38,773 nt of DNA, from assembly GCA_035533075.1 (NCBI GenBank), contig DATLUO010000001.1:1-38773 (forward strand). The letters run 5' to 3'. How positions within the stretch are numbered: the stretch's first letter is position 1; every line of letters starts with the position of its first letter. The notes beneath the pieces were generated by a model that was not told the DNA's origin, did not search any database, and saw nothing but the letters and a program-made list of their open reading frames with translations. Shown one piece after another: positions 35,329-38,773 of the stretch. Made by a program: the position numbers and the translations under genes. Source of the stretch: Pirellulales bacterium (lineage in GTDB: Bacteria; Planctomycetota; Planctomycetia; Pirellulales; JAICIG01).

Positions 35329-35410
35329 GGAGACGGCAGCCACGCGACTATCCGGCTTCGCGCAGGGCATCGACGATCACTTCGTACCAGTTTTGTGCCT
35401 TATCGGGCGT

Positions 35411-35702
35411 CCCCAATTCCTCGTGTTCTATCGAAGATGCGCAACTCGCCGCCGCTAATTCTTCGCGTTCCTTCGAAGACGCGCAACTCGCCGTCCCCAA
35501 TTCCTCGCGTTCCATCGAAGTCGCGCAACTCGCCGTCCCCAATTCCTCGGCTTCCTTCGAAGATGCGCAACTCGCCGTCCCCAATTCCTCGCGTTCCATC
35601 GAAGACGCGCAACTCGCCGTCCAATTCCTCGCGTTCCAGCGAAGACGCGCAACTCGCCGTCCCCAATTCCTCGCGTTCCAGCGAAGATGCGCAACTCGCG
35701 AC
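35411..35702. repeat. 42-bp minisatellite, seven copies
   Basis: Seven head-to-tail copies of a 42-bp unit (contains CCCCAATTCCTCGCGTTCC and GAAGACGCGCAACTCGCCGT), 85-100 percent alike by eye. The sixth copy is 2 bp short. Read on the minus strand it codes a 14-residue repeat (EREELGTASCASSL type), interrupted by the short copy. No unique spacers separate the units, so it is not a CRISPR array. A pyrimidine-rich tract (35706-35765) follows. Confidence 0.9.
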
Positions 35703-35798
35703 CCCTAATTCCTCTCTCCCTCTCTCCGTCGCTCCGTCTCCCCCGCTCTCCCTCTCTGGGGCTTGGGGCTTGGATTCTTCCTGAACCCTGAACCTTTG

Positions 35799-36164: not shown

Positions 36165-36860
36165 ATGGGAAGACCACATCGAGCTAGCGAAGGCGGGTTC
36201 GTCTACCACGTGCTGAACCGTGGCAACGCGGGCATGACCGTGTTCGACGATCAGGGCGACTTCGATGCCTTCGAGAAAGTTTTGGCCGAGGCGGTCGAGC
36301 GGACCGACACGCGACTGCTGGCCTATTGCCTGCTGCCAAACCACTGGCACTTGCTCGTCTGGCCGCGGAAGAAAGGCGAACTCTCGCAGTTTGTCCGCTG
36401 GCTCACCCTGACCCATACGCAGCGGTGGCACGCGCATCGGCCCGACGTCGGCAATGGGCACGTCTATCAAGGCCGGTTCAAATCGTTCCCCGTTCAGGAG
36501 GACGAGCATTTCTACGCGGTCGCGCGGCACGTGGAGCGGAACGCCTTGCGCGCGAACCTCGTGCCTCGCGCCGAGGCGTGGCCCTGGTGTAGCCTGTACC
36601 GCTGGCTGCGCGGCACGGCCGACGACAAGCCCGTCCTAGCCTCTTGGCCCCTCCGGCGTAAATCTGGCTGGGTGGAATGGGTCAATGCCCCACCGAACGA
36701 GGCGGAGTTGACCGCGATTCGCCGCAGCGTGGAACGCGGCAACCCCTATGGAAGCGAGTCGTGGAATGAACGCACGATCCGGCGGCTCGGATTAGAATTG
36801 ACCATCCGCCCCCGCGGTCGCCCAAGAAAGGAGCCGGCAGCCCATCAAAGCGGTTCCTGA
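36165..36860 (+). CDS. REP-associated tyrosine transposase (RAYT)
   Basis: A 231-residue Y1/HUH-family enzyme related to IS200/IS605 transposases, which nicks single-stranded REP hairpins. The HUH pair is His60 and His62 in LLPNHWHLLVWP; the likely catalytic tyrosine is Tyr117 in HFYAVARHVERNALRA. N-terminal YHVLNRGN and the GHVYQGRFKSFPVQ segment are typical of the group. The gene is intact and single, without the terminal structures of a full IS, and is flanked by inverse copies of AAAAGGTGTC..GGAACCG, its probable target hairpins. A 48-bp scrap of a sister copy lies at 13428-13475. Confidence 0.93.
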   Translation: MGRPHRASEGGFVYHVLNRGNAGMTVFDDQGDFDAFEKVLAEAVERTDTRLLAYCLLPNHWHLLVWPRKKGELSQFVRWLTLTHTQRWHAHRPDVGNGHVYQGRFKSFPVQEDEHFYAVARHVERNALRANLVPRAEAWPWCSLYRWLRGTADDKPVLASWPLRRKSGWVEWVNAPPNEAELTAIRRSVERGNPYGSESWNERTIRRLGLELTIRPRGRPRKEPAAHQSGS

Positions 36861-37029: not shown

Positions 37030-37191
37030 GACCTATCTCTATTCCGCCAGCGTCGCAGCGAGACCTTTCGCCTGGTGATGAAATCGCGCGACGGCTTGCA
37101 CCTTTGGTGGTGGCAACGCCAACGCTCGATCCCGATGGCGTTTTTTGACCGGTTTGAAGGCCAGGCCGTCTTCAATCCGCCCTACCCGTGA
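37030..37191 (+). pseudogene. Coding-like fragment, unknown
   Basis: After two stops the frame is open for 53 codons to TGA at 37191: DLSLFRQRRSETFRLVMKSR, DGLHLWWWQRQRSIPM and AFFDRFEGQAVFNPPYP. The composition is protein-like and there is no start at its beginning (an internal ATG lies at MKSRDG). It may be the C-terminal end of a lost gene. It overlaps the methylase remnant's last 20 nt. No family is recognised. Confidence 0.3.
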
Positions 37192-37854
37192 CATCCGGCC
37201 AGTCGATGCCGAAGGCCTGCGCGACCAGCGCGTCGACCCTCGCTTCCAGCCGCTGACGCTCCTCACTGCTCAGCGTCTCTTGCACCAGCCGCCGGACGAC
37301 TTTCACTACCTGCCGCGACGGCGCGGCATCGCGGTCGGGCAGCGGATACTCGGTGATGTACTGGGTCAGGTGACGCCTGCGCTGCGAATACAGCTTGTTT
37401 TGGAAGGCCAAGTCGTGGTACCGCGAGATCAGCGCCGAATTCGCGACTCGATGTTCTCTTTTCTGCTCAGCAGATACTTCCAGGTGGGCGACGATGCCGA
37501 AAAACGAACCGCACGCCGCCGGCCATCGACGACCTCGTGTGTATAAAGCACCCGCCTTTGCGGGCCAGTGGCTTCCAGCGGCCGCCATCGGGCGGCGTCT
37601 TCCTGCGAAAGGAGCGCCAGGAGATGCTGCGGGTCCGGCCGAATCTCGCCGGGCAGCGTCTCCCAATCGCGGCGGATGAAAACACCGTCGGCGGTGGTCT
37701 TGATGCCCACGCGCACTTTCGCCACCTCGCCGATCCGGCACCGCGCGGCGGCATCGACCATTGCGACCCAATCCGCTTCGCCGCCGGTGAGTAACGTCCA
37801 CGGCTTGGTGTCGTCGTGACCGAGCGGCAGGTTGCAGCCGGCTCGAAGATCCAC
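37172..37854 (-). pseudogene. Adenine-specific DNA methylase (type IIG-like) remnant
   Basis: Two frames on the minus strand together resemble the C-terminal target-recognition part of Eco57I-like restriction-methylases. The first (37429-37854) reads PWTLLTGGEADWVAMVDAAA, VRVGIKTTADGVFIRRDWE, LYTHEVVDGRRR and SPTWKYLLSRKENIESR. The second (to 37172) reads VANSALISRYHDLAFQNKLY, SQRRRHLTQYITEYPLPD and SRQVVKVVRRLVQETLSSEE. They meet near 37440 out of frame, and the segment expected between them is missing. The catalytic N-terminal NPPY domain is absent. Nothing active can be made from it. It suggests loss of a restriction system next to transposon scraps. Confidence 0.75.
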
Positions 37855-38011
37855 TCCCCGACGATCACGTTCTGCTGCCGTGGCATGCCCAGGGGCATCC
37901 GCGGACCGGCTTCAACCGGCGCTCGTGTTGGGCCTGGCGTTGTTGTTTGCGTCGCTCGCGGGCCTCGGCCAGTTTGCGATCGCGGGCGGCCAGGATGTCC
38001 TTGTCCCGGCA

Positions 38012-38104
38012 GCAGAGGAAATAAAACGTGCCGGCGATGTTGAGGTAGCTGACATCGACATGCCAGTGTTCGTCGGCGTTGCGTCGTGGCTTCGAGGCAT
38101 CTCG
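38012..38104 (-). mobile_element. Integrase-core (rve) transposase scrap
   Basis: About 30 codons (ASKPRRNADEHWHVDVSYLN, IAGTFYFLC) match the beginning of an integrase catalytic core with its first Asp, as in IS3/IS481-type transposases. The other two catalytic acids are missing. Charged unrelated sequence follows (RKLAEARERRKQQRQAQ). The rest of 37855-38176 shows no gene. Confidence 0.7.
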
Positions 38105-38176
38105 AACGCGCGCGGAGAGGGAATAATAAAGGGCCTTCCCTACGCCTCGAAAGCGGTCGAGCAGCAATGCCTTGAT

Positions 38177-38247
38177 CGGGGATCGGCTAACGGTAGGCTG
38201 CCTGGCTTTGAACCAGGTGATGGAGGTTCAAGTCCTTCTCCCCGAAC
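38177..38247 (+). tRNA. tRNA-Gln (TTG)
   Basis: Acceptor TCGGGGA/TCCCCGA; anticodon arm CCTGG-CTTTGAA-CCAGG with anticodon TTG; T-arm GGAGG-TTCAAGT-CCTTC. No CCA is encoded. It is the first of a run of close-set tRNA genes. Confidence 0.88.
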
Positions 38248-38282
38248 TTTCGTCGCGATGGCCGTGTCCCAAGAACACCCGA

Positions 38283-38357
38283 TCCGGGGCAGTTGCTGCT
38301 GGTAGTGATGCCTGGCTCTGAACCAGGAGGTCGTTGGTTCGATTCCAACCCCCGGAA
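38283..38357 (+). tRNA. tRNA-Gln (CTG)
   Basis: Acceptor TCCGGGG/CCCCGGA; anticodon arm CCTGG-CTCTGAA-CCAGG with anticodon CTG; T-arm GTTGG-TTCGATT-CCAAC. The D-stem is weak, with several wobble pairs. No encoded CCA. Confidence 0.85.
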
Positions 38358-38370
38358 CTTTTTGACAGAC

Positions 38371-38443
38371 AGTCCCGTGGCCTAGCAGCGAAGGCAGCAC
38401 CCTTACAAGGTGACGATCGACAGTGCGAGTCTGTCCGGGACTA
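38371..38443 (+). tRNA. tRNA-Val (TAC), atypical loops
   Basis: Acceptor AGTCCCG/CGGGACT; D-stem GCCT/AGGC; anticodon loop CTTACAA with TAC; T-stem GACAG/CTGTC. The T-loop is TGCGAGT, with G in place of the near-universal U at position 55, and the D-loop AGCAGCGA has no GG pair. No encoded CCA. Confidence 0.8.
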
Positions 38444-38459
38444 CTTCGAACAGCGACGC

Positions 38460-38533
38460 GTCCCGGTACGCCAACAGGCAGAGCGGCTTGGCTTAAACCC
38501 AAGTGTTTGCGGGTTCGACTCCCGCCCGGCGCA
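38460..38533 (+). tRNA. tRNA with TAA anticodon, class I shape (Leu codon)
   Basis: Acceptor GTCCCGG/CCGGCGC (one mismatch and one wobble); anticodon arm CTTGG-CTTAAAC-CCAAG with TAA; T-arm GCGGG-TTCGACT-CCCGC. The variable loop is only TGTTT (5 nt), whereas bacterial tRNA-Leu has a long variable arm. The D-arm (GCCAACAGGCAGAGCGG) recalls tRNAs of phage and plasmid arrays. The charged amino acid is uncertain. Confidence 0.78.
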
Positions 38534-38549
38534 CTCGAAAACACAACTT

Positions 38550-38622
38550 GGCCCGTTCGTCTATCGGTTCAGGACACGAGCCCCTCAAGCTCGGAAGGCG
38601 GGTTCGACTCCCGCACGGGTCG
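38550..38622 (+). tRNA. tRNA-Glu (CTC)
   Basis: Acceptor GGCCCGT/ACGGGTC; D-stem GTCT/AGGAC; anticodon arm CGAGC-CCCTCAA-GCTCG with CTC; T-arm GCGGG-TTCGACT-CCCGC. It is canonical. No encoded CCA. Confidence 0.9.
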
Positions 38623-38626
38623 CTTT

Positions 38627-38710
38627 GGCCAGGTGGCGCAACTGGAAGACGCACGACGCTCAGAACGTCGGCCCCTCGTGGGCGTGGGAGTTCGAGTCTC
38701 CCCTTGGTCA
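38627..38710 (+). tRNA. tRNA-Leu (CAG)
   Basis: Acceptor GGCCAGG/CTTGGTC; anticodon arm GACG-CTCAGAA-CGTC with CAG; a long variable arm (about 15 nt) as expected for Leu; T-arm GGGAG-TTCGAGT-CTCCC. It lies 4 nt after tRNA-Glu. Confidence 0.9.
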
Positions 38711-38713
38711 CTT

Positions 38714-38773
38714 TGACGCAGGTGGGCCAGTGCTCAGTGGAGCCTCATAAGCTCCGCGCGCCGGGTGCGACTC
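38714..38773 (+). tRNA. tRNA-Met (CAT), cut by window end
   Basis: Anticodon arm GGAGC-CTCATAA-GCTCC with CAT at 38746-38748; variable loop GCGCG; T-stem begins CCGGG and the T-loop is TGCGACT, again with G at position 55. The 3' acceptor strand is outside the window. The D-arm is hard to fold. Ile (lysidine) or initiator identity is possible. Confidence 0.7.

Follow-up and report, generated by a model that had tools for sequence, protein, structure and literature searches.

The L-arrays described by Santamaria-Gomez in 2021 are reportedly supernumerary to a complete core set of tRNAs, spread by horizontal transfer, silent, and induced by translational stress. Ribosome-mediated attenuators of the trp, ilv and erm types combine an upstream open reading frame (uORF), an antiterminator and a terminator with mutually exclusive pairings. 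In Anabaena sp. PCC 7120 the array stays silent until translation inhibitors induce it, and its regulon also includes rtcB, a slipin gene and an HNH gene; it is under the repressor TrcR, which acts at the promoter, and an attenuator goes unmentioned (PMC10272220). A tRNA array unit is defined as 20 or more tRNAs at no less than 2 per kb (as cited in PMC5966550), and such units on the chromosomes, plasmids and phages of Mycobacterium are dense, redundant, unlike the core tRNAs and have an embedded HNH gene (PMC5966550, PMC12803027). The Salmonella rsr-rtcBA operon links Ro60 and RtcB as partners in a response to tRNA damage under the activator RtcR, with no tRNA genes mentioned in the operon (PMC7790460).

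We analyzed a window of 38,773 nucleotides from a Pirellulales bacterium, which is the entire contig C1 of a genome of 8.54 Mb in 296 contigs. At its right end ARAGORN calls six tRNA genes on the plus strand (38176-38711: Gln-ttg, Gln-ctg, Val-tac, Leu-taa, Glu-ctc and Leu-cag), and comparison with the arrays of relatives adds a seventh, a Met-cat gene starting at about 38717. An earlier note, made from the sequence alone, had claimed at least seven close-set tRNA genes on one strand, mixed in isoacceptor identity (two Gln, two Leu, Val, Glu, Met), in a run extending past the window; these calls bear out the first two points, and the next genes of the run were found on contig C135. The spacers between the genes measure 3-35 nt, and seven genes in 0.6 kb is a density within the range of at least 2 per kb that characterizes array units. 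The features of this region are as follows.

36165..36860, plus strand: REP-associated tyrosine transposase (Y1_Tnp), above the Pfam cut-off; its NCBIfam match, E 2e-15, lies under the curated cut-off
37175..37854, minus strand: type II DNA methyltransferase remnant with a frameshift (PADLOC MTase_II in two frames, E 2e-31 and 3e-22)
38143..38174, plus strand: remnant of Ser-cga (anticodon and variable part), fused to the spacer preceding Gln-ttg, with Gly-tcc lost
38176..38247, plus strand: tRNA-Gln(ttg) in its array slot (ARAGORN; Rfam 62.5 bits)
38283..38358, plus strand: tRNA-Gln(ctg) in its array slot (ARAGORN and array comparison)
38371..38444, plus strand: tRNA-Val(tac) (ARAGORN), whose T loop TGCGAGT deviates from TTCRA
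38460..38534, plus strand: chimeric tRNA by alignment to other arrays, with the 5' part of Leu(taa) and the 3' acceptor strand of Tyr
38550..38623, plus strand: tRNA-Glu(ctc) with C33 replacing U33 (ARAGORN and array comparison)
38627..38711, plus strand: tRNA-Leu(cag), class II (ARAGORN and array comparison)
38717..38773, plus strand: tRNA-Met(cat), 88% identical to array Met-cat genes of relatives, cut by the contig end and continuing on C135 through a shared terminal 141 bp

The final 141 bases of C1 are identical to the ends of both C135 and C52, an overlap that looks like a k=141 assembly-graph junction. C135 carries the array onward with Met, Leu-gag, Val and Ala slots and a partial Ser-gct, and the contigs are compatible with either C1 or C52 as its true left neighbour. 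Further partial arrays lie on C52 (15 ARAGORN calls), C74 (10) and C216 (7). The largest counts, about 14 slots for C1 plus C135 and 15 for C52, compare with up to 42 tRNAs in relatives, and none of the arrays is complete in this assembly. Besides the arrays the genome encodes a core set of 47 dispersed tRNAs with 43 anticodons that serves all amino acids and includes each isoacceptor of the window, which makes the array supernumerary. Array tRNAs have a median identity of 0.59 to their core counterparts versus 0.80 to the arrays of other genera, and 34 of 36 are nearer to foreign arrays than to their own core; the Gln-ttg of the window reaches 99% identity to Gln-ttg genes in the arrays of other genera versus 48% to the core Gln-ttg of its own genome. 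These identities point to separate descent of array and core tRNAs. The earlier note had set against acquisition the prospects that these genes might be the only copies of their isoacceptors or might hold a position conserved among relatives. All of them are duplicated in the core set, and groEL, which lies 3 kb from the array in the window, is on another contig or megabases away from the array in those relatives with arrays that were checked. The stretch from groEL to the REP transposase also contains degenerate direct repeats built around AATTCCTCGCGTTCCATCGAAGACGCGCAACTCGCC, next to runs of GGGTTCAGGGTTCAGG (35380-35720).

Two apparent signs of foreignness or decay were tried and dropped. 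The absence of an encoded CCA, to which the earlier note had drawn attention, is real in the array but tells nothing of its origin, because 43 of the 47 core tRNAs likewise lack it. Low Rfam scores are a trait of these arrays and not a sign of decay, because the arrays of relatives (about 31-66 bits) score in the same range as those of this genome. When acceptor pairing and the T loop were taken as a measure of decay the array resembled the core set, with the caveat that ARAGORN itself selects for both.

The genes of the window belong to one common array order that is found in relatives of the same order and in about 50 loci from Planctomycetota and other sources. The loci were gathered by a search with the array HNH gene and include 51 arrays with 8 or more tRNAs. 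The order reads Phe-Glu-(Pro)-Pro-Ile-Lys-Ile-Lys-Thr-Gly-Pro-Asn-Ser-Gly-Gln-Gln-Ser-Val-Leu-Leu-Asp-Leu-Tyr-Glu-Leu-Met and continues after Met with Leu-Val-Thr-Ala-Ala-Ser-Arg-(Ser)-His-[HNH]-Trp-Thr-Arg-Arg-Arg-Cys, the HNH gene of about 660 bp being placed between His and Trp. The seven genes of the window fit this order with gaps, for which the chance under random order is 1/5040. The same order recurs across genera in varying genomic places, with patchy presence, and also occurs on two IMG/VR contigs; by this fixed order, together with the leader and partner genes described below, the array is recognizable in other genomes. A survey of 591 ORFs from flanks and arrays recovered few recurrent families, mainly HNH, Ro60, slipin, 23S-IVP-like and FLCGHDE, and no recurrent integrase or phage family among them. 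Two related complete genomes (G107 and G086; loci L330-L335) each gave three leader hits: one leads an array that starts with Phe, one an array that starts with Glu, and one a short run that includes His and the HNH gene. The three leader-unit types of the one genome correspond to those of the other.

Like the planctomycete arrays, the L-arrays of Nostocales plasmids (trn operon) comprise many isotypes in addition to a dispersed core set, and the planctomycete array HNH gene is about 36% identical to those of the Nostoc and Mycolicibacterium plasmid arrays. However, the tRNA order of both plasmid arrays differs from the planctomycete one, and in the Nostoc plasmid the HNH gene stands before the array instead of between His and Trp. 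The Mycobacterium units share with the planctomycete arrays their density, redundancy, embedded HNH gene and divergence from core tRNAs, but have another order, and one account of them mentions no slipin, Ro60 or terminator (PMC12803027). Nucleotide searches of plasmids and phages with a full array returned nothing beyond short matches, each to one tRNA or to a few.

The array tRNAs themselves show several oddities. Those for Leu with anticodons CAA, GAG, TAA and TAG are nearly all of 73-79 nt with a short variable loop (seen in the arrays of relatives, in L041 and L044, and at 38460-38534 of the window), whereas all core tRNA-Leu of this genome (83-87 nt) and the array Leu-cag are class II; short Leu tRNAs also occur in the Nostoc plasmid array (Leu-taa, 75 nt) and among several viral Leu tRNAs. 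C33 in place of U33 recurs in the arrays, in 29/33 Leu-gag, 16/24 Glu-ctc, 16/32 Thr-cgt and 8/12 Pro-ggg genes. A hairpin element of 22-35 bp with the form CGACCA-stem-loop-stem-GGTGCC, whose inner stem is variable yet paired, sits inside array tRNA genes of many genera in both orientations (for example L041:614-638 and L042:705-729, 862-886, 965-989 and 1287-1311). It often substitutes 5-9 nt of a tRNA loop, even the anticodon, and hides such tRNAs from ARAGORN; 46 copies were counted in 279 kb of array sequence versus 3 in 597 kb outside the arrays. Near-exact copies in this genome are confined to the arrays of C74 and C52, and a search of the window found none.

Certain protein-coding genes are also embedded in the arrays. 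A family with the motif FLCGHDERHWFVA, here termed FLCGHDE, is encoded within arrays just before His, and in one case next to RtcB (L077:8634-9311, L081:10873-11664, L086:9992-10792 and, beside RtcB, L296:8683-9612). It has no match in Pfam, NCBIfam or PADLOC and no significant PHROG match, and the AlphaFold model of an array-embedded member has a mean pLDDT of 52. Other arrays contain genes for the four-helix protein of 23S rRNA intervening sequences (L077:6282-6641, L083:10159-10515, L154:10672-11040) or, on the opposite strand, a dual-specificity-phosphatase-like gene (L073:7819-8235, L089:10120-10734).

Upstream of the arrays we detected a conserved leader, analyzed in the 33 arrays with enough upstream sequence. 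In 32 of these tRNA-Phe is preceded by an intrinsic terminator (AAAGCCCGGTGTC-loop-GACACCGGGCTTTTTT type) whose end lies 6-113 nt from the gene; in the remaining one (L147) the stem is present and the T run is interrupted. The terminator stem is paired in 98.3% of alignment cells, with six pairs changed on both sides and none of 500 shuffles scoring as high. About 40 nt further upstream lies GTGACRCTCGGCC, a strand with complementarity to the terminator's 5' arm that would act as antiterminator. This pairing averages 10.97 of 13 positions versus 6.84 in shuffled sequences (maximum 7.42). Its covariation is weaker than that of the terminator (91% of cells paired, four pairs changed on both sides, equalled in 8 of 500 shuffles), and pairing with the arms of other species is nearly as good as with the own arm (10.71 of 13), but the three leaders with GTAAC (L154, L158 and L198) carry a matching GTTAC in the arm.

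The stop codon of a uORF (TGA, or TAA in three leaders) falls inside GTGACRCTCGGCC. In the frame of this stop all 33 leaders have an open frame of 31 codons, versus 13/33 and 9/33 in the other two frames, and 27/33 have an in-frame ATG 30-46 codons upstream, versus none in either of the other frames; the predicted peptide of the C52 uORF is MTSKRPSITNERIGTCLFAGQPANSLPAHPLRL. The uORFs use 16.6 kinds of amino acids versus 15.3 (sd 0.33) in random protein windows, above all 1000 samples; they are varied and not rich in one amino acid, unlike those of trp-, ilv- and erm-type attenuators. Third codon positions differ at 0.41 versus 0.32 and 0.36 for first and second positions, a weak signal, and the slightness of this excess suggests little constraint on the peptide apart from its two ends. 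A sigma-70 promoter scan upstream of the arrays gave hits in 1/33, below the shuffle mean of 4.5.

By sequence the leaders of intact arrays thus have the parts of an attenuator, namely a uORF ending at the antiterminator, an intrinsic terminator and a predicted, mutually exclusive antiterminator. Whereas the attenuators named above control biosynthesis or resistance genes, this leader precedes tRNA genes, and whereas the Anabaena array has a repressor at its promoter, control here would be by attenuation. Rfam gave only weak sub-threshold matches on the C52 leader besides tRNA (best E 0.055), and on the basis of this lack of an above-threshold match and of a limited literature search the leader, with its uORF of about 33 codons, antiterminator and terminator, appears to be so far undescribed. 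A covariance model of its 3' 92 positions (R1) recovered the array heads of C74, C52 and C216 in this genome at 90, 89 and 83 bits, with the rest being partial matches near 28 bits. Of 15 further high-scoring sites in other genomes and outside the training set, fetched with downstream DNA and taken by rank among the matches listed and not randomly, 14 precede same-strand tRNAs, most of them arrays; at least one of the 15 (L339) belongs to the locus family of one of the training sequences.

The arrays are furthermore linked to genes related to RNA repair. Among the 43 arrays with at least 2 kb of downstream sequence, in 32 a slipin gene (PF01145) or a Ro60 gene (TROVE plus vWA_Ro60) lies on the strand of the array, either inside it or within 2 kb downstream, versus 0/24 HNH loci without tRNAs (Fisher p=4e-10, a value which, as with the leader tests, overstates certainty because arrays and leaders are related sequences). 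The remaining 11/43 have neither nearby. Slipin and Ro60 occur as alternatives, with both together in a single case. TROVE is present in eight of 39 genomes of the order, and in six of these eight it lies beside an array or an array remnant. RtcB is in line with array and Ro60 on one strand in a single genome (G015), and in another (G022) it lies about 2 kb upstream of the array on the opposite strand. The planctomycete arrays therefore differ from Salmonella rsr-rtcBA in having mostly only Ro60 or slipin, with RtcB close by in these two of the genomes examined. In the genome studied here the slipin gene behind the C216 array is frameshifted, RtcB is located elsewhere and TROVE was not found.

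Against this background the window copy is, by its gene content, a decayed middle portion of a long planctomycete-type tRNA array that has lost leader, head and tail. It begins inside Ser-cga: the remnant at 38143..38174 is identical over 32 nt to the Ser-cga of C52 and over 20 nt to that of other arrays. Strong R1 hits in the genome are limited to C52, C74 and C216, with none at the window copy, which is thus probably not expressed from a switch of its own and is itself likely to be silent. Its Leu-taa gene follows Leu-taa of other arrays up to the T arm and then continues as a Tyr acceptor strand and spacer; a block of 44 nt from within this gene through the downstream spacer matches the Tyr of C52 with three mismatches. 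Read against the alignment, this chimera was left by a deletion that removed Leu-tag, Asp and Leu-caa. Similarly, the Leu-tag of C52 bears the 5' part of Gln-ttg, with the switch point within a common CGGCAG. From these two chimeras the arrays seem to shrink via recombination within tRNA genes that leaves chimeric tRNAs behind.

The earlier note had taken the neighbouring debris as the mark of an acquired island. Its methylase remnant and REP transposase were recovered in profile searches, but the alleged transposase scrap (37868-38167) had no significant family match. The island notion was borne out in part: the array duplicates tRNAs of the core set and belongs to a type for which movement between genomes is known. 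We nevertheless hold it improbable that the run is an island marked by these neighbours. Mobile-element debris does lie directly upstream of the array, but it sits at the truncation point in Ser-cga, and so marks the site where the 5' part was lost; the methylase fragment has a copy of 96-98% identity elsewhere in the genome, on C227, and the same array order and leader are found in many other genera. Recent transfer into this genome is unsupported by the present data, the array family being widespread in Planctomycetota.

We consider it likely that the intact arrays constitute a reserve of tRNAs for emergencies, which is kept off by default, is turned on by ribosomes stalling in the uORF and is coupled to RNA repair, and that the window copy is a decayed middle part of such an array. 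We infer a switch of the following kind. RNA polymerase would start upstream of the leader, at a hypothetical promoter. As long as ribosomes complete the uORF of about 33 codons they would cover GTGACRCTCGGCC, so that the GC-rich terminator before tRNA-Phe could form and transcription would stop. Stalling in the uORF, on account of cleaved or scarce tRNAs or of a poisoned ribosome, would leave GTGACRCTCGGCC free to pair with the 5' arm of the terminator, and polymerase would then read about 40 tRNAs of many families and often go on into the slipin or Ro60 gene. The array tRNAs might replace damaged ones, while Ro60 and RtcB would handle damaged RNA. In this genome the arrays would have been broken by recombination between tRNA genes. 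Such a switch accords with the silence of the Anabaena array and its induction by translation stress, despite the presence of TrcR there. A more specific version, to which we give an even chance, is that the leader is an undescribed ribosome-sensing attenuator whose varied uORF samples the health of the tRNA pool, such that a stall anywhere turns on the spare set with Ro60 or slipin, and that conserved odd features such as C33 and Leu tRNAs without a long variable arm may help evade nucleases.

Several other readings were weighed against the emergency-set proposal. One of them, which we put somewhat short of an even chance, concerns this genome, in which all copies may be dead, decayed repeats without function in their present host: C1 and C52 carry chimeric tRNAs, palindromes are inserted in C52 and C74, the C216 slipin is frameshifted, no HNH gene lies near the arrays, and five contigs yield no complete array. 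Yet three heads (C74, C52 and C216) keep leader, uORF and terminator, and most called tRNAs retain acceptor pairing and the T loop as often as core tRNAs do, although ARAGORN favours tRNAs with both. We think it rather unlikely that the array is part of a phage, plasmid or integrative element, where it would support the translation of that element or act against anticodon nucleases of the host, with the chromosomal copies being relics. The IMG/VR contigs L197 and L198 each have the leader, the canonical array and a slipin or Ro60 gene; L198 adjoins serine recombinase and ParB-like genes, L073 adjoins a serine recombinase, and a huge phage has an HNH homolog of 41% identity and a separate cluster of 28 tRNAs; mycobacterial arrays, too, occur on plasmids and phages (PMC5966550, PMC12803027). 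However, serine recombinases were seen at two loci only, the 591 surveyed ORFs are without a recurrent integrase or phage family, and an attenuator of the ribosome type with RNA-repair partners suits a stress response of the host. There is little likelihood that the leader hairpin merely terminates the upstream gene, with the arrays being expressed in the same way as any tRNA operon. In principle an upstream gene could end at a conserved terminator, and the scan ahead of the first tRNA revealed no promoter. However, the sequence and position of the hairpin are preserved at 32 array heads, it comes with a complementary strand further upstream in which the uORF ends, and it was recovered at array heads in the many-genome search.

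Under the emergency-set proposal the leader offers a concrete and testable switch for the question of why bacteria keep silent duplicate sets of tRNAs and how they sense when to use them. The neighbouring Ro60, slipin and RtcB genes would tie these arrays to RNA repair in cis. The covariance model, the uORF and the HNH slot provide handles with which such arrays may be found in other genomes.
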